Of a DNA stretch of 64,000 bases, positions 7,576-53,048 are shown piece by piece (positions within the stretch are counted from its first letter, which is position 1; the number at the start of each line of letters is the position of its first letter). Below the pieces are notes generated by a model. That model was not told the DNA's origin and searched no databases. It was given only the letters and a program-made list of their open reading frames with translations. Origin of the DNA: an uncultured Alistipes sp. (GTDB lineage Bacteria > Bacteroidota > Bacteroidia > Bacteroidales > Rikenellaceae). Location of the stretch: assembly GCA_944321965.1 (NCBI GenBank), contig CALUNH010000004.1:48810-112809 (forward strand), given 5' to 3'. The position numbers were made by a program, and so were the translations under genes.

Positions 7576-8958
7576 ATGGGAATTAAACTGCGACTCGTCG
7601 TCATGAACTTCCTCCAGTTCGCCGTGTGGGGTTCTTATTTGGTGTGTATCGGCAATTTCCTGGGCCGAGTGGGATTGGGCGATTATATCTCCTGGTTTTA
7701 TGTGGCGCAAGGAGTCGTGTCGATCTTTATGCCCGCAATCATCGGGGCCATCGCCGACAAGTTCATCGAGCCCCAACGCCTGCTGGGCATTTCCCACCTG
7801 ACCGCCGGACTCTTCATGCTCGTGGCTGCCTGGTTCGGCTACGAGGCCACGATGCAGACCCTCGCCGGCGAGGCAACCTCCATTGGCCCGATCTTTACGG
7901 CCTACTGCCTGAGCGTGGCCTTCTACATGCCGACGATCGCCCTTGCGAATACCGTGGCCTTCTCGATCCTCAAGAGCCGCGGGTTCGATACCGTCAAGGA
8001 CTTCCCGCCGATCCGCGTCTTCGGAACCGTCGGCTTCATCGCCGCCATGTGGTTCGTCAATTTCGTCGGATTCGGGGGCCTCGGCGTCCAGACGCAGAAC
8101 CTCGAAGGGGTCGAAACCCTTGCGCTCGTCCCCATGGCCGCACAGTTCACCTACATGCAGCTCATCGTCTGCGGCGCCCTGGGACTGCTGCTCGGCTTGT
8201 ATGCCTTCAGTCTCCCGGCCTGCCCGATTGTCCGCTCGGCCGGCAAGGAGCACAAATCCCTGGCCCAGCGCCTCGGACTGGATGCCTTCGTACTCTTCAA
8301 ACAGCGCAAAATGGCCCTCTTCTTCATCTTCTCGATGCTGCTGGGCGTCTCGCTCCAGATCACCAACGGATACGCAACCCCCTATATCAACAGCTTCGCC
8401 GCGATGTCCGAAAGCTGGTTCGCCGAGAATCCTACGCTGCTGGTCTCCGTCTCGCAGGTCTCCGAGGCACTGTGCATCCTGCTGATCCCGTTCTGCCTTA
8501 AACGCTTTGGGATCAAGATCGTGATGCTGATGGCCATGTTTGCCTGGGTGCTGCGTTTCGGGTTCTTCGGGATCGGAACGACGGAGAGCATCACGGGCAT
8601 CGTCCTGCTCTTCCTCTCCTGCATCGTCTACGGCGTGGCGTTCGACTTCTTCAACGTCTCCGGGGCTCTCTTCGTCGAGCAGGAGGCCTCGAAACCCATG
8701 CAGGCCAGTGCCCAGGGGTTGTTCATGCTGATGACCAACGGTATCGGCGCTTCGGTCGGAACCTGGATTGCCGGGAAAATCGTCTCCCATTATTGCAGCT
8801 GGGAGGGTGGTTATCTCGTCGCCCGGGAGGGTGTTGAGGGCGGATGGCCCGCTACATGGCTTATCTTTGCCGGGTATGCCCTGGTGGTAGCCGTGGTCTT
8901 CGCTTTCGTCTTCCGTTACAAGCACAACCCCGAAGCCATCGGGAAGGTCAGCCATTGA
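7576..8958 (+). CDS. Nucleoside:H+ symporter-like MFS permease (NupG/XapB family)
   Basis: A 460-residue inner-membrane protein with about 12 hydrophobic segments. The opening (LRLVVMNFLQFAVWGSYLVC) and WFYVAQGVVSIFMPAIIGAIADKF are typical of the nucleoside:H+ symporter family that includes NupG and XapB, which import nucleosides with protons. The start at 7576 puts the first helix right at the N-terminus; an in-frame ATG lies 27 nt further upstream and is less likely. The ferredoxin-nitroreductase fusion follows after 4 nt and is probably co-transcribed. Substrate choice among nucleosides is not visible. Confidence 0.85.
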   Translation: MGIKLRLVVMNFLQFAVWGSYLVCIGNFLGRVGLGDYISWFYVAQGVVSIFMPAIIGAIADKFIEPQRLLGISHLTAGLFMLVAAWFGYEATMQTLAGEATSIGPIFTAYCLSVAFYMPTIALANTVAFSILKSRGFDTVKDFPPIRVFGTVGFIAAMWFVNFVGFGGLGVQTQNLEGVETLALVPMAAQFTYMQLIVCGALGLLLGLYAFSLPACPIVRSAGKEHKSLAQRLGLDAFVLFKQRKMALFFIFSMLLGVSLQITNGYATPYINSFAAMSESWFAENPTLLVSVSQVSEALCILLIPFCLKRFGIKIVMLMAMFAWVLRFGFFGIGTTESITGIVLLFLSCIVYGVAFDFFNVSGALFVEQEASKPMQASAQGLFMLMTNGIGASVGTWIAGKIVSHYCSWEGGYLVAREGVEGGWPATWLIFAGYALVVAVVFAFVFRYKHNPEAIGKVSH

Positions 8959-8962
8959 TCGG

Positions 8963-9814
8963 ATGGAGATTCGCGTTCGGGAGTCCTGCATCCGTTGCGG
9001 GCGTTGCGTAAGGGTTTGTCCGTCGCAGATCTTCGTGCAGGAGACACCGCGGAGTGTCGTGTCGCTCCGCAAACCGGAGAACTGCATCCGCTGCGGGCAT
9101 TGTGTCGCGGCCTGCCCTGCCGGGGCGGTCGAGCACGAAGCCTTCCCGCCGGAGCGTGTCCACGCCTTCGCGCGCCGCGACCTGCCGACGCCCGAACAGG
9201 TGGAGTTGCTGCTGGCTGTGCGGCGTTCGAACCGCGCGCTCTCCGACCGGCCCGTGCCGCCCGAGTGGATGGACCGCATCATCGCTGCTGCCGACCGCGC
9301 CCCGACGGCCAGCAATGCCCGACAGTTGGGATATACGCTCGTCACGGAACCCGAACGACTGCGTGAAGTGACCGAATATACGTTACTGATTTTCCGGCGG
9401 TTGGAGCGGTTGCTTTCGAATCCGCTGGTGAAGCCCTGGCTGAAGCCGCTGATGCCGGGGGCTTATCGCTACCTGCCGGTCTTTGCGCGGTTGCGGCGTG
9501 AATATGCCGAAGGCCGTGACCGCATTCTGCGCGGCGCTACGGCTCTGCTCTTCATCCATGCGCCCCGTGCGAGCCGTTTCGGCGCCGAGGATGCCAATCT
9601 CGCCTGTCAGAACGCCTCACTCATGGCCGAGGCGCTGGGCGTGAGTCAGATCTACATGGGTTTTGTCCTGACGGCCGTCCGCCAGGACCGGCACAAGCGG
9701 TTGAATCGGATGCTGGGCCTTGGGGATCGGCGCGTCTGTGCGATTCTGGCCTTCGGGATGCCCGAATTCCTCTATCCCAACTACATCGACCGCGATCCGG
9801 CCCCGAGAAACTGA
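8963..9814 (+). CDS. Two-cluster ferredoxin fused to a nitroreductase domain
   Basis: This 283-residue protein has two CxxCxxCxxxCP motifs in the first 60 residues (CIRCGRCVRVCP and CIRCGHCVAACP), expected to hold two [4Fe-4S] clusters. A nitroreductase-like FMN domain starts near residue 75 (LLAVRRSNRALSDRPVP...RAPTASNARQ) and runs to the C-terminus. The ferredoxin half would feed electrons to the flavin. This architecture is known in anaerobes, usually with undefined substrates. It sits 4 nt behind the nucleoside permease, and a strong terminator follows 26 nt after the stop. No link to nucleoside chemistry is evident beyond proximity. Confidence 0.88.
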   Translation: MEIRVRESCIRCGRCVRVCPSQIFVQETPRSVVSLRKPENCIRCGHCVAACPAGAVEHEAFPPERVHAFARRDLPTPEQVELLLAVRRSNRALSDRPVPPEWMDRIIAAADRAPTASNARQLGYTLVTEPERLREVTEYTLLIFRRLERLLSNPLVKPWLKPLMPGAYRYLPVFARLRREYAEGRDRILRGATALLFIHAPRASRFGAEDANLACQNASLMAEALGVSQIYMGFVLTAVRQDRHKRLNRMLGLGDRRVCAILAFGMPEFLYPNYIDRDPAPRN

Positions 9815-9840
9815 ACCCGAGGTCGTCCGGCGTATGCAAA

Positions 9841-9869
9841 AAAGGAGCGGTTTTCGACCGCTCCTTTTT
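9841..9869. terminator. Bidirectional terminator between the nitroreductase and lptD
   Basis: GGAGCGGT and ACCGCTCC form a perfect stem around TTTCG, with A residues before and T residues after. It can end transcripts from both converging genes. Confidence 0.88.
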
Positions 9870-9894
9870 ATATCTGTATTTTCGCCGTTTTTCC

Positions 9895-10009
9895 CGGCTC
9901 CTCCGGCTCCTCCGGCTCCTCCGGCTCCTCCGGCTCTTGCGGCTCCTCCGGCTCTTGCGGCTCCTCCGGCCCTTTCGGCCCTTCCGGCCCTTCCGGCTCT
10001 CTTGCGGCC
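9895..10009. repeat. 9-bp tandem repeat (minisatellite), about 12 units
   Basis: Units of the form CGGCTCCTC: four identical, then alternating CGGCTCTTG and CGGCTCCTC, then CGGCCCTTT and two CGGCCCTTC, ending with an 11-nt variant. On the minus strand it is a purine-rich GAGGAGCCG array starting about 10 nt after the lptD stop, so it would lie in the lptD 3' UTR. It is not in a credible gene. Confidence 0.92.
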
Positions 10010-10018
10010 CCCCCTTCC

Positions 10019-13006
10019 TTAATACATGTTGTCGTACATCGACTGCGACTTGTCGTATTTCAGGTCCGAGAGCGATGCCGCCTTCACGCCGATGTTGAAA
10101 CTCCACGACCGGTGGTAGCCGAACGGAATCCACGAAAAGGACATCTGCCAGCAGTGCAGGTCGCGCGTGATCGATACCGATGAGGTGGTCAGTTTCCTCG
10201 TCTTGATGTCGTAGCCGCCCTGGAACGTGATACCCGTCTTGGGGGTGAGGTTCACCGAACCGTTGAATCCGATGGTCTGCGTGATGTTCTTGCGGTAGCC
10301 CGTCGTGCCGTTGTTGACGTAGGATACCGAGTAGTTCACCGCGTAGTTGAATCCGAAGTTCCACGGCAGCGAGAAATCATAGTAGCTTTGGGCCATGTAC
10401 TGCCTTCGCAGCACGGGGTCCAGCTGCCCGTAGGGGTCGTAGAAGGGGTTCTGGTACTCCGGAGGGATCGACGTGATGTCGTTCACCGCCGGGGTGCTCT
10501 TGTCCTCGCGCGACTTGAACGTGTAGCCGAACGACCAGCCCGTCGAGGTGATGCGCCCCGGGAAGAAGAGCTTGTCGTAACGCACGCCCTGCGGTGTCAC
10601 CCGGTAGGGGTCGAGCGTCGCCGAGAGGTTGATGCCGAAGTTCTTGAAGATCGTCGAGCGGAACGACAGCGAGATGGTCGACAGCCGCATCGAGTCGGCC
10701 AGGAAGTTGTACGAACCGCTGGCCCGCAGTTCATCGATGAGCTTGATCTTCTTCACGCCCGAGGTGTCGCGTTTCGAGAGCACCTTCATTTCGAGGTTCT
10801 GCGACAGCGAGAAGCTCATCGACATCGAACGCCCCGACGACGGGACGCCGTAGGCATTGACCGCATAGGGCGAATAGGTCGTGAAACGGCCCGTCGAGTC
10901 GGTCTGGCGCGTCAGGTAGTATCCGTATTTCGGATCGCTGAAGTCCGGGGCGTAGGAGAAGCTGATCGACGGCGTCAGCGTGTGGCGGATGGCCTGGATC
11001 TTGCGGTCGCGGCGCTTCTTCGTGAAGTCGTACATGCCGTAGACGGTCGTCGACGTCGAGACGCTGAAATTGTAGTTGTACAGACGGTAGAATCCGTAGT
11101 TCGTCGGCAGCGTGTCGGTCTTGTTCGTCACCGGGTTCCACTCGTACTCCACCTTCTTGAAGTACCATTTTTCGGTGTAGTTTGCCGACGGCGTGAGGTT
11201 GATGTAGTTGAAGAGGTTGAACGACGCCGAAACCGGAATCGAGTGTTCGATGCCGTTCTTCATGTTGTCGAGCGTCTTTTTGGTGAAGATTTCCGATTCG
11301 GTGGTCGTCACCGAGTTGGTCATCTTGCCCGTGTACTGCATCGAGATCTTCTCGTACCAGCGGTCCTTGCCCATCTTCTCCTTGCGCTTGAAGGGGTAGA
11401 AGCGCGAGACGTTGAAGACCACCGTCGGCAGGGTAATCGAGAGTGACTGGTTCTGGGAGTTCTGCGATACGGCCATGTTTGCCGAGAGCGAGAAGGGGGT
11501 TCCGGCCCAGTTCTTCGAGTAGGAGATCGACGAGTTGGTCTGCGTGGCGAGAATGTCGTTGAGCGTCGTGGCCGAATACTTGCTGTAACCGCTCGTGGCG
11601 AAGTTCACCGACGCCGAGAAGGTCGAGCCCGGATTGGCCTTGGCATCCTGCGAGTGGGTCCACTGGATGCGGAAGTTGTTCTGCTTGATGTAGTCGGGTT
11701 CACCCTTCTCGCCGGTCTTCACGCTTGAAAATTCCATGTTGAAACTGCCGCTGTACTTGTAGCGCTTGATGTAGCGCGAGGCGGCCGAAGCCTCCCACGA
11801 TCCCAGCGTATAGATACCTCCGCGCACGGCCAGATCGGCATAGTCGCCCAGCGTGAAGTAGTAGCCCAGGTCGCGCAGGAAGAAACCCTTGGAGTATTCC
11901 TCGCCGTAGGTGGGCATCAGAAGTCCCGATTTCGGGCCCGAACTGATCGGGAAGAAGCCCTCGGGAATGCCGAGGAAGTAGATCGGGACGTCCTCCATGA
12001 CCAGGTAGGCCGGGCCCGTGATGACCTTCTTGCCGGGGATCACTTTCGCCTTGGTCATCGCCAGGTAGAAGTGCGGGTGGTCGGTTTCGTCGCACGTCGT
12101 GTACTTGCCGTGCTGGATGTTGATCGTGTTGTCGGGCATCTTCTTCACGCTCCCGCCCACGAGCCAGCCGTCGCCCTGCTGCGTGGCCACACCCTTGATC
12201 TTGGCCTTCTTCGAATCGAGGTTGTAGGTGATCGTGTCCATCTGGTAGGAGGCCGAACCGTCCGAGAATTCGGGTTTAGTGACGATCGGTTTGCCGTCGA
12301 GCGAGTCGGGTTTGCCGTAGGCGTGGACCAGTTTCGAGTTCATGTCGATGCGCATGAAGTCGGCCTTGAGGTTGCTGTTCTGGTAGGTTACGTCGCCCTG
12401 GTTGTAGATGTAGACCAGCTTGTTGCGCACGTCGTAGACCAGCGAGTCGGTATTCTTGCCCGAGATCGGGTCGTCGAGGAATGCTCCGGCCGGCCGGGGT
12501 TTCTTCACCGTGTCGCGCCGCATCGTGTCGGCGGCGAGCGAATCCGCGGCAAGCGAGTCGGCCCGCATCTGCAGCGAGTCGCTCTTCAGGGCGATGAGCG
12601 AATCGACCTGGGCCGAGAAGAGCGAATCCTTCTCCTGCTGGCTCAGGGCGTTGAAGGCGGCGTTGCGCCGGGCCCGTTCGCGGGAGACCCGGGCTTCCCG
12701 GCGGGCTTCGCGGCGCGAAACCGAAGCGGACGGCGACGTGGGGGCGGAGAGTGCGGAGGGCGCGGAAAGTGCGGGCGGCTCGGACGAAACGGCAGATGCC
12801 GCGGGGCCCTGGGCTGCGGAATCCCCGCCCCGGGAGACGTCGTGCGCCTGCAAAAGGGTATCCTCTCCGAGCCGGAACGGGGCGGTGCGAGGTGCCATGC
12901 CGCCCAATACGCCCTGGGCGAACAGCATGAGCACGGCCGCCGACAAGAGATATTTTGCCCTTACCTTATCCAAAATTCCAAAAATTTTCCGTACCTTTGC
13001 CGACAA
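10019..13006 (-). CDS. lptD: LptD-like outer-membrane LPS assembly protein
   Basis: A long exported beta-barrel protein (995 codons from the farthest start) of the LptD/OstA type, which inserts lipopolysaccharide into the outer leaflet. After a hydrophobic export segment (KYLLSAAVLMLFAQGVLGG) comes a low-complexity Ala/Ser/Arg stretch with repeated DSLAADSLAADT, then the periplasmic OstA-like part (VYDVRNKLVYIYNQGDVTYQ, LKADFMRIDM), then a large barrel rich in aromatic-alternating strands. The 13006 start is TTG inside a palindrome; in-frame TTG or GTG codons about 10-15 residues later give a more usual signal peptide, so the start is uncertain. It diverges from the amidase gene. The 3' UTR carries the 9-bp minisatellite. 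Confidence 0.85.
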   Translation of the reverse strand: MSAKVRKIFGILDKVRAKYLLSAAVLMLFAQGVLGGMAPRTAPFRLGEDTLLQAHDVSRGGDSAAQGPAASAVSSEPPALSAPSALSAPTSPSASVSRREARREARVSRERARRNAAFNALSQQEKDSLFSAQVDSLIALKSDSLQMRADSLAADSLAADTMRRDTVKKPRPAGAFLDDPISGKNTDSLVYDVRNKLVYIYNQGDVTYQNSNLKADFMRIDMNSKLVHAYGKPDSLDGKPIVTKPEFSDGSASYQMDTITYNLDSKKAKIKGVATQQGDGWLVGGSVKKMPDNTINIQHGKYTTCDETDHPHFYLAMTKAKVIPGKKVITGPAYLVMEDVPIYFLGIPEGFFPISSGPKSGLLMPTYGEEYSKGFFLRDLGYYFTLGDYADLAVRGGIYTLGSWEASAASRYIKRYKYSGSFNMEFSSVKTGEKGEPDYIKQNNFRIQWTHSQDAKANPGSTFSASVNFATSGYSKYSATTLNDILATQTNSSISYSKNWAGTPFSLSANMAVSQNSQNQSLSITLPTVVFNVSRFYPFKRKEKMGKDRWYEKISMQYTGKMTNSVTTTESEIFTKKTLDNMKNGIEHSIPVSASFNLFNYINLTPSANYTEKWYFKKVEYEWNPVTNKTDTLPTNYGFYRLYNYNFSVSTSTTVYGMYDFTKKRRDRKIQAIRHTLTPSISFSYAPDFSDPKYGYYLTRQTDSTGRFTTYSPYAVNAYGVPSSGRSMSMSFSLSQNLEMKVLSKRDTSGVKKIKLIDELRASGSYNFLADSMRLSTISLSFRSTIFKNFGINLSATLDPYRVTPQGVRYDKLFFPGRITSTGWSFGYTFKSREDKSTPAVNDITSIPPEYQNPFYDPYGQLDPVLRRQYMAQSYYDFSLPWNFGFNYAVNYSVSYVNNGTTGYRKNITQTIGFNGSVNLTPKTGITFQGGYDIKTRKLTTSSVSITRDLHCWQMSFSWIPFGYHRSWSFNIGVKAASLSDLKYDKSQSMYDNMY
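12992..12999 (+). promoter_or_regulatory. Candidate -7 box for the amidase-mlaD unit
   Basis: TACCTTTG fits TAnnTTTG and points towards the amidase, giving a leader of about 110 nt. No TTTG lies at 19-21 nt upstream. It overlaps the palindrome at 12996-13015. Confidence 0.5.
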
Positions 13007-31557: not shown

Positions 31558-32751
31558 TCAGGCTTTGCCGTGGATCTTTTCAGCGGCCTCATGTGCCAGT
31601 GCCCGGCAGCAGTCGTACATTTTCGGGGAGAACCCCTGCTTCATCTCCACGGGTCCGCAGAGTGTCTCCCACTTCATCTTCTGGGCGAACTCTCCCAGCA
31701 ACTTGACCGAAGCCCCGGCCCAGGTGAAGGAGCCGAACCAGCCGAAACGGCGCTGCGGGATGCAGCGTGCGGCGAGTTTGTCGAGCAGCTCGGCTACGGG
31801 CGGGAAGAGCCCTGCATTGTAGGTGGGTCCTCCGACCAGCAGCGTGTCGAAACGGAAAATGTCGCGCAGCACGACCGACGGATCGGCATACGAGAGGTTG
31901 TAGATGCGGATGTTGCGGACCCCTTCGGCTGCGAGTTCACGGGCGATGCGCTCGGCCAGCTGCTCGGTGTTCCCGTACATCGAGGCGTAGGCGATGACCA
32001 CGCCCGGTTCGCCCTCGTAGCGGCTCATGCGGTCGTAGAGATCGATGACGCGGCCGATCTGCTCCTGCCAGACGGGACCGTGGGTCGGGCAGATGCTCCG
32101 GATTTCGAGCCCTGCGAGTTTCTGGAGCGCCTTCTGTACCGGAGCGCCGTATTTGCCGACGATTGCGGCGTAGTAGCGGCGCATCTCGTCCCAGTAGCGT
32201 TCGGGATCGACCTCGGAGTCGGTGATGCCTCCGTCGAGGGCCCCGAAGCAGCCGAAGGCGTCGCCCGAGAAGAGCGTCTGCTCCTCGGGGCACCACGAAA
32301 CCATCGTTTCGGGCCAGTGGACCATCGGGATCATGTGGAACGAGAGGCTTTTGCCGCCCAGATCGAGCGTGTCGCCCTCCTTGACCTCGATCGTGTTGCC
32401 GCAGAGGCCGTAGAAACCCTCGATCATCTGCAGGGCCTTGGCATTGGCGACGATCTGCAGGTCGGGGTAGATGCGCCGCAGGGCGGTGATCGACGACGAG
32501 TGGTCGGGTTCCATGTGGTTGACGACGAGGTAGTCGACCTTTCGGTCGCCGATTATTTCGCGGATATTGGCTTCGAGACGGCTGCCGAAAGCCTCTTCAA
32601 CGGTATCTATGAGTGCGATCTTTTCGCCTGTGACGAGGTAGGCGTTGTACGAAACGCCCTGGGGAAGCGACCAGAGCCCCTCGAAACGGGTTGTGGTCCG
32701 GTCGTTGACACCGACGTAGTGAATGCCGGGTGCGATTTGAGTGATTGCCAT
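31558..32751 (-). CDS. FprA-family A-type flavoprotein (diiron flavodoxin)
   Basis: A 397-residue cytoplasmic flavo-diiron protein. The metallo-beta-lactamase-like diiron domain has NHMEPDHSSS (H-x-E-x-D-H), MVHWPETM, FSGDAFG and CPTHGPVW as metal ligands. The flavodoxin domain starts near residue 255 (VVIAYASMYGNTEQLAERIA, FMN phosphate loop). These enzymes reduce O2 to water or NO to N2O, protecting anaerobes. A -7-like box TAAATTTG precedes the gene. ugd lies 6 nt downstream. Confidence 0.94.
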   Translation of the reverse strand: MAITQIAPGIHYVGVNDRTTTRFEGLWSLPQGVSYNAYLVTGEKIALIDTVEEAFGSRLEANIREIIGDRKVDYLVVNHMEPDHSSSITALRRIYPDLQIVANAKALQMIEGFYGLCGNTIEVKEGDTLDLGGKSLSFHMIPMVHWPETMVSWCPEEQTLFSGDAFGCFGALDGGITDSEVDPERYWDEMRRYYAAIVGKYGAPVQKALQKLAGLEIRSICPTHGPVWQEQIGRVIDLYDRMSRYEGEPGVVIAYASMYGNTEQLAERIARELAAEGVRNIRIYNLSYADPSVVLRDIFRFDTLLVGGPTYNAGLFPPVAELLDKLAARCIPQRRFGWFGSFTWAGASVKLLGEFAQKMKWETLCGPVEMKQGFSPKMYDCCRALAHEAAEKIHGKA

Positions 32752-34457: not shown

Positions 34458-37400
34458 TTAAAAGTTGATGGTAACGCCGCCCGAAACGGTGCGCAGAACC
34501 GAGTAGTTTGCCTGCGACTGTCCCTGGATGTACTGGCGCGGATCAAGACCCTTTCGTTTCGACAGCAAGGCCACATTGTCTGCCGCAACATAAATGCGCA
34601 CGCTCGACATCTTGATGGCCTTTGCCCACTTTTGCGGCAAGGTGTATCCCAGGGTGATGTTGCGCAGGTTGAAGTAGGAGGCGCTGATCATGTAGGGATC
34701 CAGAGCCTGGGTCTGATTGATGCTGCCGTTGAGTTTGGGCACGTTGGTGTTGGTGTTTTCGGGGGTCCAGGCATTCAGAATATCCTTGTGCCAGTTGGCG
34801 CCGTCCGAAGTGCCGGCGTGCATCAGGCCATTGTACATCGCATCGTACACCTTGCCGCCGATCTGGTAGTTTCCGGCAATCGAGAAATCCAGCCCTTTCC
34901 AGTTGAAGTTGACCGTGATGCCGCCAATGAAATCGGGAATGGCCGTACCGAGATAGAATTTGTCACCTACGGCATCCACATTCTCATAGGTTACCTTGCT
35001 CAGCGTCTCTTCTCCGTTTTCTCCGGTTTCACGGTGCCAGTAAAGGGCATCTCCGGTTTCGGGATCCACTCCGGCCGATTTGAGCCCGTAGAAGTCCCAT
35101 ACCGAACCGCCGTCCTTGATGTTGTAATAGGCGAGGTGGGTGATACCCGTTTCCACTTTGTCGGCCGGCAGATCCGTCACGGAGTTGGTATAGGTCGTTC
35201 CGGTCAGGATTACCTCCAGCGACGTGTTTTTCGTCCGCAGAGGAACGGCGCTGAGCGTGAACTCGAAGCCCTTGTTGATCATGGTCATGATGTTCATCGG
35301 CTTGCTGGGGATGCCGGTCGACGGCGAGAACGGCATATCATAAAGCATGTCGCTCGTTTTCTTGTGGAAATATTCCGCATTGAGGTTGAACCGTGCGTCG
35401 AACAGCGAGACGTTGATGCCCGCATTGAGGTTGTTGGAAACCTCCCAGGTCAGATCCGGATTGCCCCAATAGACCTGGGTGACGGAGAATTCGTCGCCGT
35501 TGGGGCTTACAGAGTACTGATCCTTGTAGGGATAGTAGTTCGGAATCTGGTTGTTTCCGGTCGTACCGTAAGAGACCTTGAACGCTAAATTGTTAATCCA
35601 CTCCACGTCTTTGAGGAAACTCTCCTGCGAAATGCGCCAGTTGGCTCCGACCGACCAGAAAACGCCCCAACGGTTCGCTTTGGCGAAGCGCGACGATCCG
35701 TCACCTCGGATATTGGCATCGATGTAATAACGATTGCCATATTCGTAATGGAGGCTTCCGAACCACGATTCGATCGTTTCGTCGTAAGTGTACGAGTTGA
35801 GATTCTGCATGGAGATGGCATTGCTGAATTCGCTGTTTTCCGGGTCGTAGTAGTTTTGCTTGGTTCCCGTGAAATAACGGTATTCCCATTTGTAGGATTC
35901 ATGACCGGCCATGACGTTGAAGGAGTGACTGCCAATCGTCTTCTCATAGGTGAGCAACTGGTTGCCCGTCAGGGTCTGATCCCGGAGTGTATAGCGGGTT
36001 CCTGTTCCGTTGTAGGTCTTGGCATCGCCGTATGAAGGCGTCATGAAGCTGACATTCTGCTGATTGGTCAGGTCATAAGAGAGGTTGGCCGAAAATTTCA
36101 ACCCTGACAGGATATTCAGGTTGATACCGGCACGGGTACTGACCTGATCGGTCAGCGTTTCATTCTTGTTGGCCTTGTCCGTAGCCACGATGTTCTGTCC
36201 CTTGCCCCAGGTGCGGGTACCGTAGGTGCCGTCTCCGAAGTCGTAGATCCGACCTCCGTTCTCGTCGCGGATCAGGTTTCCGTCCTTGTCGTAGGCGTAG
36301 ACCGGGTAAATCGGGGCGATGCTCTGGATGAACATGAACGTATTGTTGTAATTGGCCAGCGAGGAGATCATCTGCGAATTCTGCTCTCCGTGCGAATAGG
36401 CGAGATTTCCGTAGAGGTCGACCCATTTGTTGACCTGGTAGGAGGCGTTGGCACGTCCCGAATAACGCGAATAGTCCGAGTTTTTGATGATACCTTCGTC
36501 GTTGAGATAGCCCAGGGACATGAAGTACTTGAGTTTGTTATTTCCGCCCGAGATGCTGACATTGTACTCCTGACGCAGGCCTGCATGGAGTGCCTCGTCG
36601 CTCCAGTCATCCGTATAACGACGCTGGGTGGAGATGAGTTCTCCGTTTTCGGTCATGAGTTTGTCCGGAGTGGCCGAAATATAGGGATTGTATCCCAGGC
36701 GATTCAAGATGACGCTTGCTGCCGTAGCACCATCCCCTTCCGTATTGACCAGATACTGATAAAAGGTCTTCAGATACTGGTCGGGAGAGGTCATGATGTC
36801 GTAATTGCCGACGCCGCGGGAGTTGACACCCACGCGAGCGTCGAACTGAACGTTTGTGCGGGTGGCGTTACACTTTTTGGTAGAGATGATCACCAGACCG
36901 TTTGCGGCACGGGAATCGTACAGTGCGGTCGACACGGCATCCTTCGAGACGGAGATGGATTCGATATCCGCCGGATTGATGGCAGCGATGCTGCCGTTGT
37001 ACGGAGCTCCGTCCACGATATAGAGCGGGTCGCTTCCGGCGTTGATCGAGCCGATGCCTCGGATCGAGATGGTGGAGCTCGATCCGGGTTGTCCCGATTG
37101 GGAGGCTACCTGAACACCGGGAACAAGACCTTCGAGAGCTTTAGAAACGTTGGAGACCTGCAATTTTTTGAGTTCCTCACCGGATACTGCACTGACGGAT
37201 CCCGTGAAGGATTCCTTTTTTGCGGTACCGTATGCCACGACGATCACATCGTCGATTGCATGGGTATCTTCCTGTAAGGATACGTTGATTTGGGTTTTGC
37301 CGGCGATCGACACTGTTTGGGTTTGGTAGCCGATGAACGAGATTTTCAGTGTACCGTCAGCGGGAGCCGAGATTGAAAAACGTCCGTTGGTATCGGTTGT

Positions 37401-37559
37401 CGTACCGACAGTCGTACCCTCCACCAGAACCGTAGCTCCGGCGATCGGTCGATTGTCCGTATTGGCAACCGTACCGGTTACTTGCTTACTTTGCGCGGAG
37501 GCGAGCAACACTCCCCCTCCCACAATGGCAATTAACGATAGTAGGAAATTTCTTACCAT
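34458..37559 (-). CDS. SusC/RagA family TonB-linked outer-membrane transporter (switch partner A)
   Basis: A 1033-residue TonB-dependent transporter. A signal peptide (MVRNFLLSLIAIVGGGVLLASAQ) is followed by a carboxypeptidase-D-like regulatory domain (VTGTVANTDNRPIAGATVLV), a TonB-box-like segment (AIDDVIVVAYGTAKKESFTG), the plug with SIRGIGSINAGSDPLYIVDG, and a 22-strand-type barrel. It works with the SusD encoded 13 nt downstream. The start codon lies only 18 nt from the left inverted repeat. The sequence inside the repeat carries no promoter in this orientation, so the gene is predicted silent as drawn. Confidence 0.94.
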   Translation of the reverse strand: MVRNFLLSLIAIVGGGVLLASAQSKQVTGTVANTDNRPIAGATVLVEGTTVGTTTDTNGRFSISAPADGTLKISFIGYQTQTVSIAGKTQINVSLQEDTHAIDDVIVVAYGTAKKESFTGSVSAVSGEELKKLQVSNVSKALEGLVPGVQVASQSGQPGSSSTISIRGIGSINAGSDPLYIVDGAPYNGSIAAINPADIESISVSKDAVSTALYDSRAANGLVIISTKKCNATRTNVQFDARVGVNSRGVGNYDIMTSPDQYLKTFYQYLVNTEGDGATAASVILNRLGYNPYISATPDKLMTENGELISTQRRYTDDWSDEALHAGLRQEYNVSISGGNNKLKYFMSLGYLNDEGIIKNSDYSRYSGRANASYQVNKWVDLYGNLAYSHGEQNSQMISSLANYNNTFMFIQSIAPIYPVYAYDKDGNLIRDENGGRIYDFGDGTYGTRTWGKGQNIVATDKANKNETLTDQVSTRAGINLNILSGLKFSANLSYDLTNQQNVSFMTPSYGDAKTYNGTGTRYTLRDQTLTGNQLLTYEKTIGSHSFNVMAGHESYKWEYRYFTGTKQNYYDPENSEFSNAISMQNLNSYTYDETIESWFGSLHYEYGNRYYIDANIRGDGSSRFAKANRWGVFWSVGANWRISQESFLKDVEWINNLAFKVSYGTTGNNQIPNYYPYKDQYSVSPNGDEFSVTQVYWGNPDLTWEVSNNLNAGINVSLFDARFNLNAEYFHKKTSDMLYDMPFSPSTGIPSKPMNIMTMINKGFEFTLSAVPLRTKNTSLEVILTGTTYTNSVTDLPADKVETGITHLAYYNIKDGGSVWDFYGLKSAGVDPETGDALYWHRETGENGEETLSKVTYENVDAVGDKFYLGTAIPDFIGGITVNFNWKGLDFSIAGNYQIGGKVYDAMYNGLMHAGTSDGANWHKDILNAWTPENTNTNVPKLNGSINQTQALDPYMISASYFNLRNITLGYTLPQKWAKAIKMSSVRIYVAADNVALLSKRKGLDPRQYIQGQSQANYSVLRTVSGGVTINF

Positions 37560-37577
37560 AAGCGTTAATTTTAATTG

Positions 37578-37600
37578 TTTTTAAAATAAAAAGTCCACGG
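37578..37600. repeat. Left inverted repeat of the invertible segment
   Basis: This 23-bp sequence is the exact reverse complement of 39311-39333. Read towards the minus-strand susC it begins CCGTGGACTTTTTATTTT and ends in five A residues. It lies 18 nt upstream of the minus-strand susC start. Confidence 0.95.
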
Positions 37601-37814
37601 ACCGGACATAACCGACAGCTTCCTGATTATGAATATGTAGACACGACGCCCCGCATAAATCCGCAAATTATTGATTGTGAGCGGGCAATCATTTTTTTTC
37701 GATCCGAAAATGCTGGCGTTCCGTTACCGGGAGGTAACCCCGGACAAGGGATTATTCCTCTGAGAATATGCTCTTTGGATTTGATCATGGAAGATTCGGT
37801 CGTTACTTAAACGT

Positions 37815-37822
37815 TACCTTTA
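37815..37822 (+). promoter_or_regulatory. Weak -7-like box ahead of the recombinase gene
   Basis: TACCTTTA differs from TAnnTTTG in the last base and lies 20 nt before the recombinase ATG. TTTG elements at 37774-37777 and 37780-37783 are too far upstream (about 31 nt or more). Confidence 0.3.
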
Positions 37823-37841
37823 GGGATCGAAATCGTAGGTT

Positions 37842-39080
37842 ATGAGCATGAGAAACACGTTTAAAATCCTGTTTTACGCCAAGAAAAATGCCCCGTTGCG
37901 GAATGGGAATATTCCGATCATGGGGCGCATCACCCTCAACGGCGAACGCACACAGATCTCAACCCGCCAATCCGTCCCGCTCAAGCTTTGGAATGCCAGT
38001 CTGGGACGTGCCATCGGACGGAGCAGCCAAGCGCTGCTCGTCAATGAACAACTCGACCGGATCCACTATCGCATTGAACATTGTTACCACATGCTGCTTT
38101 GCGAACAGACTCCGGTGACTCTCTGCATGATCAAGGAGCGCTATCTGGGAACCGACCGGCAAAAACACGGGCTGCTGGACTTTTTCCGCAGGCACAACGA
38201 AGAATTTTTCCGCATGGTCGGAATCTCCCGAAGCAAGACAACCTATTATAAATACAGAAGCGTATACCGTCACCTGGAAAGGTTCATCCCGGAACATTAC
38301 GGGTGCAATGATCTTTATTTCAGATAAATAGACCGTAAATTCCTGGCGGATTTCCACCGCTACATGGTGCTGGAATGCAACCGCAAGAAAAATACGACCT
38401 GGGTCTATATGATTGCCTTCAAACATATCCTCATGCTGGCGCGGGAACATGGATACATGGACCGCAATCCGTTCGCCGACTACAAGTTGAATTGCGAATC
38501 CGTCACCCGGAACTACCTTTCCATGCCGGAATTGCGGAGCATCATACGGCTCAGTCCCGAATCGCCGACCCTGCAACTGATCCGCGATGCCTTTCTGTTC
38601 AGTTGTTTCACGGGGCTCTCCTATATTGATCTTCGCAGGCTGACGCCCCGGCACCTCCAAAGGACACACGATTGTCTGTGGATCCATACGTTCCGGCAGA
38701 AAACCGGCACTCCGGTCCATATACGGCTGTTCGACGTGGCCCATGCGATTGTCCGGAAATACCTGTCCGACGGATGCGACACTCCCATATTCGACCTGCC
38801 GACCAACGGTTGGTGCAATTCATGCCTTGAGCGGCTGATGTCCATGGCGGGCATCACCCGCCGGATTACGTTTCATGCGGCCCGCCATACGTTTGCCACC
38901 ACGATTACGCTGTCGCAGGGGATGGCAATCGAGACGATCAGCGAGTTGTTGGGGCATAAAAGTGTGCGGACGACACAGATCTATGCAAAAATCACCCTTT
39001 CGAAACTCGAAAGGGACATGATGCTTCTTTCGAAAAAGATCGACAGACTCTATCAGAATCCGGTTACGGTTGAATTCTGA
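37842..39080 (+). pseudogene. Tyrosine site-specific recombinase interrupted by one in-frame TAA
   Basis: A 413-codon frame encoding an IntDOT/Tsr-like tyrosine recombinase, broken only by TAA at 38325-38327 (codon 162). Both sides stay in the same frame and the family sequence continues across it (CNDLYFR, stop, IDRKFLADFHRYM). One base change from GAA or CAA would explain it. The N-terminal arm-binding and SAM-like core-binding parts precede the catalytic domain. His345 and Arg348 (FHAARHTF), His372 (LGHKS) and nucleophile Tyr381 (IYAKI) are present. The first catalytic Arg position is Ser260 (FTGLSYID), as I recall for IntDOT. The gene lies inside the inverted repeats and would be expected to act on them. 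It could be inactive, read through at low level, or restart at the internal ATG 38364 as a catalytic fragment. Confidence 0.88.
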
Positions 39081-39278
39081 TCATCATCCGATTGCCGGGA
39101 AAGGGCCGGAAAATGGGTGGAACAGGGAGAAAAAAGGCGAAAATGGGAATCTCCGTCCCAAAAACCGCAAAATGCCGGTTTCAAATTGTAACCTATTTTT
39201 CTCAAACTCGGCAAAAATGCAATGTATTTTACAATAAACAAGCAATAATATCACCTTGTTTGATTTTTTTACCGTTTA

Positions 39279-39310
39279 TTTGTAAAGCATTCCGCATTTA
39301 CCTACCTTTG
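39279..39310 (+). promoter_or_regulatory. Consensus promoter at the right edge of the invertible segment
   Basis: TTTG (39279-39282), a 20-nt spacer and TACCTTTG (39303-39310) are a perfect Bacteroidales promoter. The -7 box is immediately followed by the right inverted repeat at 39311, so transcription would start inside the repeat and give a leader of about 115 nt for the plus-strand susC. Confidence 0.88.
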
Positions 39311-39333
39311 CCGTGGACTTTTTATTTTAAAAA
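39311..39333. repeat. Right inverted repeat of the invertible segment
   Basis: Exact reverse complement of 37578-37600: CCGTGGACTTTTTATTTT then five A residues. Beyond it the two flanks diverge apart from a short ACAA match offset by two bases. The start codon of the plus-strand susC lies 98 nt to the right. Confidence 0.95.
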
Positions 39334-39431
39334 AACAACGGAATAACATTTTATCCCATTCAACTTGAAGAACCCGAATGTATCCATTCGGGCGTGATGG
39401 ATTCGTACACTCACTTCTAAACCATTTATGC

Positions 39432-42400
39432 ATGAGAAAATTTTTACTGCTGTTAATCATCATTAACCTGAGCTTGTCGAGTGCTTTTGCACAGGTTAAG
39501 GTGTCCGGTAGCGTAACGGATTCCGAAGACGGAATGCCGGTTATCGGTGCTACCGTGACTGTGAAGGGAACCTCCAGCGGAACCGTCACCGATACGAAAG
39601 GTGCGTTTACCATCTCGCTGCCTTCCACCCCCGGAACGATCATCGTCTCGTTCCTCGGGTATCAGGAACGGGTGATTGCCGTGTCGAAGGGTATGACCCG
39701 TGTGGACGTGAAACTCGAAAAATCGACTACCGCAATCGACGATGTCGTCGTGACGGGTTTCAAAAATGCCAAGAAGGAGACTTTTACGGGATCCTCGGTC
39801 AAGATCAGTGCCGATGATATCGCCATCGCCGGTGTGACCGACGTGAGCCGTATGCTCGAAGGCCAGGTGGCCGGTGTCTCGGTCCAGAACGTCTCCAGTA
39901 CGTTCGGTTCGGCCCCCAAGGTCCGTATCCGTGGTGTGACGTCGCTCAGCGGTGAGAACAAACCCCTTTGGGTCGTGGACGGAGTCGTCCTGGAGGATGT
40001 GGTCAACATCTCCAACGACCAGCTTTCGAGCGGTGACCCCACGACGCTGCTCGGATCCTCCGTGGCCGGTATCAACGCCTCGGATATCGAGACGTTCGAC
40101 ATCCTGAAGGATGCCGCCGCAACGGCTCTCTACGGCGCCCGCGCCATGAACGGTGTCGTGGTGATCACCACCAAGAAAGGTAAGCAGGGCGCTCCCCGGA
40201 TCTCCTATACGGGCAACTTTACGATCCGTACTAAACCGCGCTATTCGAATTTCGACATCATGAACTCCGCCGACCAGATGGCCGTCTATTCGGAGTTCGA
40301 ACGCAAGGGCCTCCTCAATCAGGATATCGTCAATACCTCGAATTCGGGTGTCTACGGACTGATGTACAATGCCATTGCGGCCTACGACCCCGAAACGGGA
40401 TTCGGCCTGGCCAATACGCGGGAGGCGCGGAATGCCTTCCTGATGCAGTACGCCAAGGCCAATACCGACTGGTTCGATATTCTCTTTACGCACAACCTGC
40501 TTCAGGAGCACTCGCTGAGCATCTCGACCGGTACCGAGAAGTCGCGGACCTACGCCTCGATCGGTTTCATGAACGACGCCGGATGGTCGGTTGCCGACAA
40601 CGTGAGCCGTTATACGCTCAACTTCCGCAACGATTACGACATCAGCCGCAAGATTTCGGTCGGCTTCCAGGCCGTGGCATCGCTGCGTCAGCAGGAGGCG
40701 CCGGGATCCTATCAGCGGGCGATCGACGTGGTGAGCGGCGAGTGGTCGCGTGACTTCGACATCAACCCCTTCAGCTATGCGCTCAATACGAGCCGGACGG
40801 TCCGCCCCTACGACAACGACGGCAATCTGGAGTACGTGACGATGAACTACGCTCCGTTCAACATCCTCAAAGAGCTGCAGGAGAACAAGATCCAGCTCAA
40901 TGTGATGGATGCCAAGCTGCAGGGACAGTTCGACTACAACATCGTCAAGGGGCTCCGTTTCAACTTCACGGGAATGCTCCGTTATGTCAAGAGCGACCAG
41001 GTTCACCGGATTACCGAAGAGTCGAACGTCGCCGGAGCCTACCGTGCCGACGGCAACTCGACGATCCGCCAGCGGAACCGCTACCTGTGGACCAATCCCG
41101 ACGATCCGAATGCCGAGCCGGTTTCGGTCATGGAGCAGGGCGGTTTCTACAACACGACCAACAATACGATGCTCAACTACGAGGTGCGCGCCTCGTTCGC
41201 CTACAACAAGGTCTGGAACAATGCCCGCACGCATGAGCTGAGCGTCCTGGCCGGTACGCAGATCAAGTACCTGGAGCGTGACGAGGAGACGGCGATCCAG
41301 GCCGGTTATCAGTACAACATGGGCGGCGTGGTCTTCAACAACCCGCTGTTCTACCGCATGATGAACGACCGCCAGCTGGATCTCTTTACGGCAACGACCT
41401 ATCAGGACCGTTTCGTGGCCTTCTATGCCAATGCCGACTACGCCTTCGACCGGAAATACTCCGTTTCGGCCACGGTGCGTTACGACGGAAGTAATGCGCT
41501 GGGTTCGAGTTCGAGCGCGCGGTGGCTTCCTACGTGGAACTTCGGTGCCAAGTGGAACCTGCAGAACGAACCCTTCCTGGAGGATGTGGAGTGGATCGAT
41601 GTGCTGAGTGCGCGTCTGAGCTACGGTCTGACGGCCAGTATGCCCAATGCGTCGAATGCCGCAGCCGTCTATTACAGCTCCCAGGTATACCGTCCGGGCT
41701 GGAGCGAAAACCAGATCAGCATCGATGCGCTGGCCAACTCCGAGCTGACGTGGGAGAAGAGCTACCAGTTCAATGCGGGCTTCGACCTCACGCTCTTCGA
41801 CAACCGGCTCAACTTCTCGATCGACTATTTCAACCGTCAGGGCTTTGACCTGATCGCCTATATCAAGACCTCGGGAATCGGCGGACAGTCGTGGAAACTG
41901 GCCAACTACGCCGACCTCGACTCGCACGGTGTGGACATCACGCTGGGCGGTACGCTCATCCGGACGAAGAACGTGACCTGGACCGCGAACTTCACGTTCG
42001 GCTATTCGGAGAATACGATCAAGAACGCCAAGGACCAACCGTCGGTTTACGACCTGGTGAAGAGCGAGGGCGGCAACAAGGAGGGCTATCCGGTGAACAG
42101 CCTCTTCTCGATTCCCTTTACGCGGCTCGATCCCCAGACCGGTATTCCGCTGTTCATCAATGCCGACGGCGAGGAGAGCCAGGATGTGAACATGCAGGGT
42201 ACGGAGACCGACTTCCTGAAATACGAAGGCCCGGTGGATCCGAAATACACGGGCGGTTTCAATACGTCGGTTCGTTTCAAGAACTTCACGTTCAACGCCT
42301 TCTTCACCTACCAGGCCGGGAACAAGATCCGTCTGACGCCCGCCTACAACGCCCAGTACAGCGATCTGGACGCCATGTCGAACGAATTCAAGGACCGCTT

Positions 42401-49661: not shown

Positions 49662-52600
49662 ATGAAACCATTTAGACTCCTATTGGCGGCAGTGCTTCTG
49701 GCGGCGTCCGTGGCTACGGCCTCGGCTCAGCAGGTGACTGTCAGGCTCCGGCAGGTAAAGCTGGTGCAGGTGCTGGACGAGATTTCGCGGCAGACCGGGT
49801 ATGCGTTCTACCACTCCCGTCCGACGGTCGATCCCGACCGGATCGTATCGCTTGACGTCGTGGACACGAAACTCGAAACGGCATTGGATCAGCTCTTCGC
49901 CGGAACGCAGATCGGCTATGAGATCAGGAACCAGAAAATCTATCTGACGGCCAAACCGGCCGCATCGACCCCCGCCCTTCAGCCCCGGAGCGTGAAGGGT
50001 ACGGTGACGGATGCCTCCGGCGAGCCGGTCATCGGTGCCACGGTCGTTGTGAAGGGTACGACCAAAGGGGCCAGCACGGGTATCGACGGCGGATTCACGC
50101 TGGAGGTGATGCCGGACGACGTGATAGTCGTTTCGTACATCGGTTACGACACGCAGGAGATTGCGGTCGGCAGCCGCACGGCCTTCGAAATCCGCCTGAA
50201 AGAGGAGGCCACGGCGCTGGACGACGTGGTGGTGATCGGCTACGGTGTCGTCAGAAAGCGTGACGTCTCGACGGCCATCTCGTCGATCAAGGCCGAGGAT
50301 ATCGCCAACCAGCCCATCTCGGACTTCCGCCAGTCGATGATCGGCAAGATGCCCGGCGTGCAGGTGATGCAGACGGGCGGTGATCCCGAAGGCAGTGTCA
50401 TGGTGCGCGTGCGCGGTATCAGTTCGGCGACGGCCGGCAACGATCCTCTGTATATCGTCGACGGGGTGCCGATGGAGAACGGGCTTTCGAACCTCAATAC
50501 GAACGACATCGAGTCGATGGAGGTGCTGAAGGATGCCTCGTCGGCTGCAATCTACGGTTCGCGCGGTTCGAACGGCGTGATCCTCATCACGACCAAGAAG
50601 GGCCATTCGGAGACGATCCAGGTTGCTTACGACGGCTATTACGGTATCGAGCAGGTGTCGAAGAAGATCGACCTGATGAACGCCTACCAGTATGCGCAGT
50701 TCGCCAAAGAGGGCCACGACAACTCCTATTACAGCATCTATCCCGGCGGCACGGCACCCAACGGCGAACGCCCCGAATCGTACATGAACTGGCCGGTGGA
50801 GCTCACGCCCTATCTGAACGGCGAGCCGGGCCTGACCGATACCGACTGGCAGGATGCCATTTTCCGCACGGCCTCGACCACGAGCCACAACATCGCCGTG
50901 TCGGGCAAGGGCAAACATGTCAATTATTTCATTTCGGGCAACTATTATTACAAGGAGGGTGTGATTATCAACTCCGATTTCGAGCGCTACTCCTTCCGCA
51001 TGAACCTCGACGGCAAGTACAAGAATTTCAAGTACGGCGTGAACTTCTCGCCCTCCTATTCGAAGTCAAACAAGGTTAATGCTTCTGGGGCCTACGGCAG
51101 CGGCGGCATCGTGCAGTCGGCCCTGACCTCGTGCCCGATCTGGCCTGTCTACAACGAGGACGGGACGTTCAACTTCCAGGGCAACGGTTACTGGCGTATC
51201 GGTAACGACTACCAGCACAATGAAATCCTGAATCCCGTAGCGCTGGCTACGTTGCAGTCGGAGGTGATCGACCGCATGTCGATGACCGGCCGGGCCTTCC
51301 TCGGGTATGACATCTGCAAGGGGCTTTCGTTTCAAACCTCGTTCGGCGGGTCATTCTACGGCGCCATCGACAACAAATACCGCTCGTCGGAACTTCCTTT
51401 GCTCGGAAAGGCCTATTACGATGCCCCGTCCAATCCGGAAGGCTACTCCTCGGCGGGCTTCTACTTCAACTGGCTCGTGGAGAACCAGCTGACCTACGAC
51501 CGTATGTTCGGCGACCACTCGTTGAACGTGATCCTCGTGCAGTCGGCCCAGAAGGAGACCTACAAGACGCTGAACGTCACCGCGACGGACTATCCCAACG
51601 ACCAGAACCAGACGATCGGCGGCGGTACGGTGAGCGACGGCGATTCGAGAACCGAACAGTGGTCGCTGGCCTCCTACCTGGCCCGTGTGCAGTACAGCTA
51701 CAAGGGCAAGTACATGCTCTCGGCGGCGATCCGTGCCGACGGTTCGTCGCGCTTCGGCAAGAACAACCGCTGGGGTTACTTCCCTTCGGCCTCGGCCGCG
51801 TGGCGCATCTCCGGGGAGCCCTTCTTCCAGAACGCCGAGGCGCTCCGCTGGGTCAGCGACCTGAAACTGCGCGCCAGCTACGGCCAGACGGGTAACTTCC
51901 AGATCGGCAACTACAAGCACCTGGCCACGATGGACGGTGACAACTACATCCTCGGCACGGGCAGCGGCTCGCTCGTAAACGGCTACAAGCCCACCAATGT
52001 CGCCAACCCGAACCTCACCTGGGAGAAGACCTCGATGTTCAACGTCGGAGCCGATTTGAGTATTCTGGGCGGCTACCTCAATCTGACGGCCGAGTATTAC
52101 TACGCCAACACGACGGACATGCTGCTCGAAGTGCCGATCCCGCACCTGACGGGTTACAGCACGACGCTGATGAACATCGGCAAGGTGAACAACCGCGGCT
52201 GGGAGCTCTCGGCCACCTCGCAGCACTCCTATGCCAACGGCATCAGCTACTCGCTCAACGCCAACTGGGCGGCGAACACCAACGAGGTGAAGGCGCTCGG
52301 GGCCAACGATACGCCGATCATCACCTCGGGGAGCGTCGAACACGCCTACTACATCACGAAGGTCGGCGAGCCGATCGGTTCCTATTACCTGCTCGTGCAG
52401 GACGGGATTTTCAAGAACGCCGAGGAGTTGAAGGCCTACCCGCATTTCGACACCACGCAGCCGGGCGATTTCCGCTTCGTGGACGTCAACGGCGACGGCG
52501 TGATCGATACCGACACCGACCGCACGATCGTCGGCAACTATATGCCGGACTTCACCTACGGATTCGGCGGAACGTTCGGATACCGGGGGTTGGATTTCTC

Positions 52601-53048
52601 GGTGGCGTTCCAGGGTGTCCACGGCAACGAGATCCTGAACCTGAACCGCCGCTATCTGGACAACATGGAGGGCAACGTCAACGGCACGACCATCGCGTTG
52701 AACCGCTGGGTCAGCGCCGACCAGCCGGGTGACGGCAATACCAACCGTGTGAACCGCAAGCAGACGGGAAACAACGGACGCACGTCGACCTGGCACATCG
52801 AGGACGGCAGCTACCTGCGTCTGCAGAACATCGCCCTGGGCTATACGCTTCCGGCGAAGTGGACCAAGAAGTTCTATGTCGAGAAGCTGCGCGTCTACGT
52901 CTCGGCGCAGAACCTCGTGACGTGGACCGACTATTCGGGCTACAACCCGGAGGTCAGCGGCCGCACGAGCGCTCTGACGCCCGGTGAGGACTACGGAACC
53001 TATCCCCTGGCCAAGACCTACATGGTCGGTCTGAATGTTACCTTCTAA
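49662..53048 (+). CDS. SusC/RagA transporter with N-terminal STN signalling domain
   Basis: An 1128-residue TonB-dependent transporter. After the signal peptide (MKPFRLLLAAVLLAASVATASA) comes an STN domain (about residues 25-105: LVQVLDEISRQTGYAFYHSRP...ALDQLFAGTQIGYEI) that contacts FecR. It is followed by the carboxypeptidase-D-like domain (VKGTVTDASGEPVIGATVVV), the TonB box region (ALDDVVVIGYGVVRKRDVST), the plug (VRVRGISSATAGNDPLYIVDG) and the barrel. This is the sensor-transporter of the locus and lies divergent to its sigma/anti-sigma pair. SusD follows after 13 nt. The other two SusC proteins here lack STN domains. Confidence 0.95.
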   Translation: MKPFRLLLAAVLLAASVATASAQQVTVRLRQVKLVQVLDEISRQTGYAFYHSRPTVDPDRIVSLDVVDTKLETALDQLFAGTQIGYEIRNQKIYLTAKPAASTPALQPRSVKGTVTDASGEPVIGATVVVKGTTKGASTGIDGGFTLEVMPDDVIVVSYIGYDTQEIAVGSRTAFEIRLKEEATALDDVVVIGYGVVRKRDVSTAISSIKAEDIANQPISDFRQSMIGKMPGVQVMQTGGDPEGSVMVRVRGISSATAGNDPLYIVDGVPMENGLSNLNTNDIESMEVLKDASSAAIYGSRGSNGVILITTKKGHSETIQVAYDGYYGIEQVSKKIDLMNAYQYAQFAKEGHDNSYYSIYPGGTAPNGERPESYMNWPVELTPYLNGEPGLTDTDWQDAIFRTASTTSHNIAVSGKGKHVNYFISGNYYYKEGVIINSDFERYSFRMNLDGKYKNFKYGVNFSPSYSKSNKVNASGAYGSGGIVQSALTSCPIWPVYNEDGTFNFQGNGYWRIGNDYQHNEILNPVALATLQSEVIDRMSMTGRAFLGYDICKGLSFQTSFGGSFYGAIDNKYRSSELPLLGKAYYDAPSNPEGYSSAGFYFNWLVENQLTYDRMFGDHSLNVILVQSAQKETYKTLNVTATDYPNDQNQTIGGGTVSDGDSRTEQWSLASYLARVQYSYKGKYMLSAAIRADGSSRFGKNNRWGYFPSASAAWRISGEPFFQNAEALRWVSDLKLRASYGQTGNFQIGNYKHLATMDGDNYILGTGSGSLVNGYKPTNVANPNLTWEKTSMFNVGADLSILGGYLNLTAEYYYANTTDMLLEVPIPHLTGYSTTLMNIGKVNNRGWELSATSQHSYANGISYSLNANWAANTNEVKALGANDTPIITSGSVEHAYYITKVGEPIGSYYLLVQDGIFKNAEELKAYPHFDTTQPGDFRFVDVNGDGVIDTDTDRTIVGNYMPDFTYGFGGTFGYRGLDFSVAFQGVHGNEILNLNRRYLDNMEGNVNGTTIALNRWVSADQPGDGNTNRVNRKQTGNNGRTSTWHIEDGSYLRLQNIALGYTLPAKWTKKFYVEKLRVYVSAQNLVTWTDYSGYNPEVSGRTSALTPGEDYGTYPLAKTYMVGLNVTF

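Follow-up and report, generated by a model that had tools for sequence, protein, structure and literature searches.

The window analyzed here, a stretch of 64,000 nucleotides from an Alistipes draft assembly (82 contigs, 85% complete), contains two SusCD operons that point away from each other. On the left, a susC gene (SusC/RagA, TIGR04056; 34458-37559, minus strand) is accompanied only by a susD gene (PF14322, PF07980; 32933-34444, minus strand). On the right, a second susC gene (SusC/RagA, TIGR04056; 39432-42749, plus strand) is followed on the same strand by susD (PF14322, PF07980; 42779-44479), a gene for a substrate import-associated zinc metallohydrolase lipoprotein (TIGR04549, PF15890; 44482-45453) and a gene for a DUF4302 protein (PF14135; 45478-46809). 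These domain matches agree with the gene content that the original prediction had assigned to the two divergent operons. The frame of the right susC is open from 39378, and its start at 39432 was picked on the basis of the signal peptide and the relatives. A flavodiiron-type protein gene with ODP beta-lactamase and flavodoxin domains (31558-32751, minus strand) lies outside the presumed switch and served as the syntenic anchor for orientation. Elsewhere in the window, an open reading frame of susC size is found at 49662-53048, a candidate for one of the further susC genes of the genome.

The leaders of the two outward-facing susC genes carry inverted repeats that we regard as putative recombination sites. 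The left site (37578-37600, minus strand; the promoterless 'A end') and the right site (39311-39333, plus strand; the promoter 'B end') are 23 nt each, 100% complementary and separated by the 1710 nt of the segment at 37601-39310 (plus strand). Both the sequence itself and the shuffled controls bear out the perfect repeats that had been predicted: the longest perfect inverted repeat in the region 36500-40500 is 23 nt, compared with a mean of 11.4 and a maximum of 16 in 200 dinucleotide shuffles of this region. Allowing for up to 3 mismatches, no further copy of the repeat was found elsewhere in the 64-kb window, and 100 whole-window shuffles gave no match. The possibility that the repeat is a common susC leader was rejected, since its inner 16-mer (CTTTTTATTTTAAAAA, with at most 1 mismatch) occurs in the 85% complete assembly only at the two window sites, despite the presence of more susC genes.

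Within 37560-39340, the pattern TTTG-N18-22-TAnnTTTG has a single match, which is the promoter TTTG-N20-TACCTTTG at 39279-39310 on the plus strand. It faces the right susC operon, and its last base abuts the right repeat. This pattern scan supports the earlier claim of exactly one consensus promoter between the repeats, the Bacteroidales consensus being given as -33 TTTG and -7 TANNTTTGY in the accessible part of PMC8748976. With the spacing restricted to TTTG-N19-21-TAnnTTTG, two matches occur in the 64 kb, this promoter among them. Because 10 of 300 shuffles of 37560-39340 (~3%) contain a match by chance, the promoter call rests more on its position and its conservation in relatives than on its rarity. 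At the other side, the promoterless segment end abuts the left site, so that no promoter for the left operon is seen between its start codon and the site in the window orientation. The expectation that inversion would preserve the spacing is correct for the distance between promoter and repeat, but not for that between repeat and ATG, which differs by side: the core of the site lies 33 nt from the ATG of the left susC and 113 nt from that of the right susC. The 113-nt leader of the right susC also contains a hairpin (CCCGAATG/CATTCGGG; 39373-39392), the pairing of which is kept in five relatives with 0 compensatory changes.

The segment between the sites contains a tyrosine recombinase gene on the plus strand (37842-39080), with Arm-DNA-bind_5 in the N-terminal part and Phage_integrase (PF00589, 50.6 bits) in the C-terminal part. 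Judged from its family and from PDB sequence matches, the enzyme is a tyrosine recombinase. The residues R284, K286, H344, R347, H371 and Y380 (L045 numbering), which form an R-K-H-R-H-Y set, are invariant in 16 sequences, and the usual position of the first arginine is occupied by serine, as it is in IntDOT. The original prediction was right in placing a recombinase gene inside the segment, but it overlooked that the frame is interrupted by an in-frame TAA at codon 162 (38325-38327). This stop is located between the Arm-DNA-bind_5 and Phage_integrase domains and would therefore cut the DNA-binding arm from the catalytic domain, although a consensus error at this position is possible in a draft assembly of 82 contigs. 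An undisrupted recombinase frame is present in 14 of the 18 loci of the window's recombinase clade (clade 1) that have the gene inside the segment; the four exceptions are the window, G152, where the gene is split at contig ends, and L055 and L062, which have frame changes. As a consequence of the interruption, the switch in the window genome is probably either slow or locked in the state with the right operon ON, provided that no other recombinase acts in trans. No in-house backup enzyme was evident in the same assembly: 12 other matches to the phage-integrase family are found there, of which the closest paralog (L006) is only 39% identical to the window recombinase. As only two sites are present in the assembly, the recombinase looks dedicated.

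To compare the orientation of the segment between species, we used the segment and its edges as queries against 180 genomes of the genus, which gave matches in 53 genomes, most of them weak. In G153, G155, G152 and G009, the segment matched on the strand opposite to that of the flank matches. A flipped segment with unmoved flanks is thus present in 4 of the 4 nearest relatives that hold the cassette. The repeat is the exact point at which the junctions are swapped: the left susC leader is joined to the promoter end and the right susC leader to the promoterless end, while the operons stay in place. These genomes therefore contain the very form that had been predicted, with the same promoter in front of the other susC. 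The outside gene order is unchanged in the relatives; the left susC and susD of G009 are not the same genes as those of the window. The junctions of G152 are distributed over two contigs, and its split segment was left out of the identity comparison. In this comparison, the right susC of the relatives shared 93-98% of its DNA sequence with the window, the flavodiiron anchor 92-96% and the segment 75-92%. The right SusC protein is 99% identical across five species (the window, L044, L045, L046 and L048), and the third codon positions of its gene are 82-96% identical. This near-identity beside a segment of 75-92% DNA identity may reflect either strong purifying selection or recent exchange. With respect to the features by which invertons are recognized, the locus shows non-chance inverted repeats, an outward promoter at one end and, between species, both orientations; the cognate recombinase frame of the window is interrupted.

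Among 57 matches to the leader or site in other assemblies, 7 are located no more than 150 bp from the end of a contig, where 0.67 would be expected. Contigs break at most ~41 bp from a site-like leader at the ends of G011:C8 and G011:C10 and at the start of G012:C8, and more such breaks are found at the starts of G166:C82, G010:C80 and G010:C99. Such breaks might reflect the presence of both orientations in the DNA that was sequenced, but they could also stem from the repeated leader confusing the assembly.

Comparison of the junctions between relatives also narrows down the position of the exchange. Bases 2-3 of the repeat (CC, CT or GG) stay with the segment, and the bases past the poly-A run stay with the susC gene, which places the exchange within the common core ACTTTTTATTTTAAAAA. 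Similar shared cores are present in other loci (TTTTTATATTA, TTTTTACATTA). In these other loci, the end-to-end similarity lies largely in the shared susC leader and the 5' portion of the coding sequence, and inward of the core the two ends have a short identical run or none; as the similarity of the ends is there partly that of the susC leader, repeat length alone should not be over-read. The repeats are only 21-23 nt in the window's own group, and in a second recombinase clade they are 106-181 nt long with 83-97% identity, reaching from the site into the susC coding part.

To define how widespread this arrangement is, stretches were fetched at 20 best matches, at 20 weaker ones and at 18 further recombinases. 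The latter were chosen around 17 high-listed recombinase matches and one own-genome paralog, and 5 of these 18 have the recombinase between divergent susC genes. At least 21 species genomes among the 180 of the genus carry the cassette. At 21 loci, including the window, the recombinase gene lies between two divergent susC starts; 16 of these belong to the window's recombinase clade and 5 to the second clade, which is ~45% identical. The 21 do not include L051, where the left neighbor at the contig start is no recognized susC, L052, where the right end is missing, and L152, which has one susC. They do include L057, the left susC of which is represented by its leader and first codons only because of a contig end, and L053, with a partial left susC. 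In 18 of the 21 loci, exactly one end has a strict TAnnTTTG box beside the site, and no locus has such a box at both ends; the remaining 3 (L061, L062 and L063) lack it but have near-consensus boxes (GATCTTTG, TACCTTTA and CATCTTTG, respectively) at one end. The promoter is always at a fixed end of the segment, 6-7 bp from the core, and the recombinase gene points to this promoter end in 21 of 21 loci. The two recombinase clades have different site sequences and the same layout. Relative to the flavodiiron anchor, the orientation is toward it in 8 and away from it in 5 of the 13 loci for which the fetched stretch includes the anchor gene, and the recombinase tree requires at least 4 inversions to account for these 13. 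Based on these data, related species differ by inversion exactly at the sites, and this has happened repeatedly across the genus.

The label 'recombinase between two susC' needs 5 changes on the recombinase tree, which indicates that related enzymes also serve other layouts. For example, in L064 (G104; 12714 and 13204) a short promoter segment lies between divergent susC genes, and the recombinase is located beyond a susD. Likewise, L066 (G173; 14196) has a divergent susC pair with a short intergenic stretch that bears site sequence and one promoter, and a related recombinase beyond susD. Three site-like sequences were observed in both L059 (G141; 7209, 9009 and 13870) and L051 (G133; 304, 2082 and 12345), the third of which precedes a further susC gene, and these loci could be three-output or shufflon-like versions. 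L140 (G013) has a second recombinase of the same clade at 8682-10433, within 22-nt inverted repeats (95%) with the near-palindromic site TCTTTTTATTCCAAAAAGA. The gene to its right has a weak Omp28 lipoprotein likeness (34.7 bits, under the cut-off of 150), and L140 is possibly a switch that acts on a non-Sus surface protein.

A further conserved element was detected between the promoterless end of the segment and the recombinase gene. In the window, it consists of two GTTAC pairs, neither assigned to a strand: pair 1 (GTTACCGGGAGGTAACC) at 37723-37739, and pair 2 (GTTACTTAAACGTTACCT) at 37802-37819, 79-80 bp from pair 1 and just upstream of the recombinase gene. The window has only two such GTTAC pairs within 12 bp in its 64 kb. 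From the promoterless end to the recombinase start in 15 clade-1 loci, counted without the near copies L044 and L045, the 3936 bases contain 38 occurrences of GTTACY or its complement, whereas 500 resamplings gave 2.8 on average and never more than 9. These half-sites are arranged as two pairs with a spacing of ~11 bp within each pair. A half-site is present 78-79 bp upstream of the anchor half-site in 11 of the 15 loci, at 77 in L055 and at 76 in L062, and none is found there in L050 and L056. The loci of clade 2 have 0 to 2 GTTACY hexamers before the recombinase, which makes the four-half-site element a trait of clade 1. The loci with the recombinase outside the segment (L064-L067, L069, L075 and L076) have no constant pattern upstream of the recombinase, and in the stretch between the susC genes one GTTAC-N6-GTAAC pair is found in L066 and none in L064 and L075. 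Candidate roles for the element are arm-type sites for the N-terminal arm domain, a recombination enhancer, or an operator. With regard to a role as the recombinase promoter, TTACCTTTA resembles a -7 box, but no TTTG is seen at the right distance.

The susC genes that flank the segment were also compared with each other. In 14 pairs of susC genes from the same locus, identity is 73-100% over the first 66 coding bases and 53-64% over the remainder. The left susC of G009 encodes a protein that is 34% identical to that of the window, and the first 66 bases of the two genes are 94% identical, which would fit an exchange of the gene behind a leader that stayed constant. In the window itself, the two susC genes show no such seam (58% for the first 66 bases versus 55% for the rest), which counts against a universal rule.

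Altogether, we consider it likely that the locus represents a self-contained, two-output invertible promoter switch. The site-specific tyrosine recombinase encoded in the segment would exchange strands in the common core and thereby invert the 1.7-kb segment. In the window orientation, the single promoter abutting one site would drive transcription of the right SusCD operon, and in the opposite orientation that of the left one, the OFF operon having no visible promoter of its own between start codon and site. We infer that a recombinase of the window's family performs the inversion, that inversion would also occur within a strain, and that expression of the two SusCD operons would be mutually exclusive.

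It is much less probable that the same switch is inverted in trans by another genomic recombinase, so that the local gene would be dispensable and the window would still be switching. The interruption of the local gene and the 12 other phage-integrase matches in the assembly fit this explanation, and a promoter of Phocaeicola vulgatus inverts despite a defective neighboring invertase, probably through a different enzyme, as described in the available portion of PMC13114119, from which it follows that the stop in the window is no proof of a locked state. The low identity of the nearest own-genome relative and the absence of a third copy of the site from the assembly argue against action in trans, and the fact that recombinase and sites are kept together in 21 loci favors a dedicated enzyme. 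We regard it as improbable that the arrangement is a fossil of a few evolutionary inversions, caused by homologous or otherwise rare recombination between short repeats, and no device for phase variation. The inversions directly observed here are those between species, some of the recombinases are broken, and the inversions between species might be infrequent events and no sign of phase switching. Nevertheless, a fossil would not be expected to show a constant layout in 21 loci with a single promoter that is always at the same end and 6-7 bp from the core, a layout shared by two clades with different sites, or an intact recombinase in 14 of 18 clade-1 loci. Moreover, the repeats of the window's group are, at 21-23 nt, short for homologous recombination.

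The least probable explanation, to which we attach hardly any weight, is a small mobile integrative element that inserted in either direction between two susC genes in different species. Such an element would account for a recombinase gene between short repeats and for an orientation that varies by genome. However, the repeats are inverted and include part of the target leaders, 13 loci occupy a single chromosomal position next to the same gene, no empty site beside two divergent susC genes was seen among the loci inspected, and the segment ends always have one promoter on a fixed side. The self-contained two-output switch is thus the explanation that we prefer. Its extension to a genus-wide, evolvable receptor slot, with recombinase, promoter and internal regulatory element carried as one cassette, is put forward tentatively, and we hold it to be somewhat doubtful. 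In such a slot, the GTTAC element, with its four half-sites in two pairs 79 bp apart, would provide arm-type or enhancer sites that couple the dose or direction of the recombinase to switching. Homologous recombination via the constant seam between leader and signal peptide might bring new SusCD operons into either side, and third operons might be added (L059, L051).

The following comparisons with known systems relate to the accessible portions of the cited papers. In Bacteroides fragilis, DNA inversion (Tsr0667, region EE) switches whole SusC/SusD receptors (PMC4747536, PMC5729914). The Alistipes locus resembles this shufflon in that inversion by a tyrosine recombinase would select a SusC/SusD pair, which is concluded here from anatomy and from orientation between species. 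The repeats of region EE overlap the start codons of susC homologues, which is akin to the seam between leader and signal peptide described above (PMC5729914, PMC4747536). In the B. fragilis shufflon, large gene-carrying segments with several repeats invert to feed a promoter, whereas in the Alistipes cassette a small segment with promoter and recombinase would flip between two fixed operons. Tsr0667 also acts on nine other regions (PMC4747536), and the Alistipes assembly has two sites only. A shufflon moves gene-carrying segments between at least three sites; the window has two, and three are seen in L059 and L051. The cassette is also similar to the invertible promoters of Bacteroidales (Mpi, Tsr19), in which an outward -33/-7 promoter lies between inverted repeats (PMC8748976, PMC4747536, PMC12118408). 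In the portions covered, the described capsule and surface promoters of this kind have one output that is ON or OFF, segments of ~180-350 bp and the invertase gene outside. The Alistipes cassette differs from these by its two outputs, its size of 1.7 kb and the recombinase gene inside. The Hin recombinase is a serine recombinase, and its segment carries an outward promoter that drives one operon together with the repressor of the other. A recombinase gene inside the invertible segment, together with a promoter, is known for the Hin flagellar switch of Salmonella and for the fimbrial switch of Providencia stuartii, where the segment is 844 bp with 14-bp imperfect repeats (PMC5903667). The Alistipes segment has a tyrosine recombinase and serves a full operon on each side.

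In the accessible running text of this literature, as distinct from the tables of inverton catalogues, we found no description of a two-sided SusCD switch with the recombinase inside, and no study of such a switch in Alistipes. One catalogue of 311 regions in 39 genomes, as given in the part available to us, could include members (PMC10939037). The architecture had been put forward as noteworthy; this stands for the two-sided layout with recombinase and promoter inside, of which that text gave no description, but not for switching of SusC/SusD by inversion as such, which was already known. In gut Bacteroidota, SusCD transporters are among the main proteins of the cell surface and act as gates for nutrients. 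By committing each cell to one of two uptake systems, such a cassette would provide a simple, testable model of bet-hedging in Alistipes. Since the cassette is small, equipped with its own enzyme and promoter, and present in at least 21 of 180 genomes, counts of junctions in metagenomes could be used to measure switching, and species with an interrupted recombinase would offer natural locked states for comparison.
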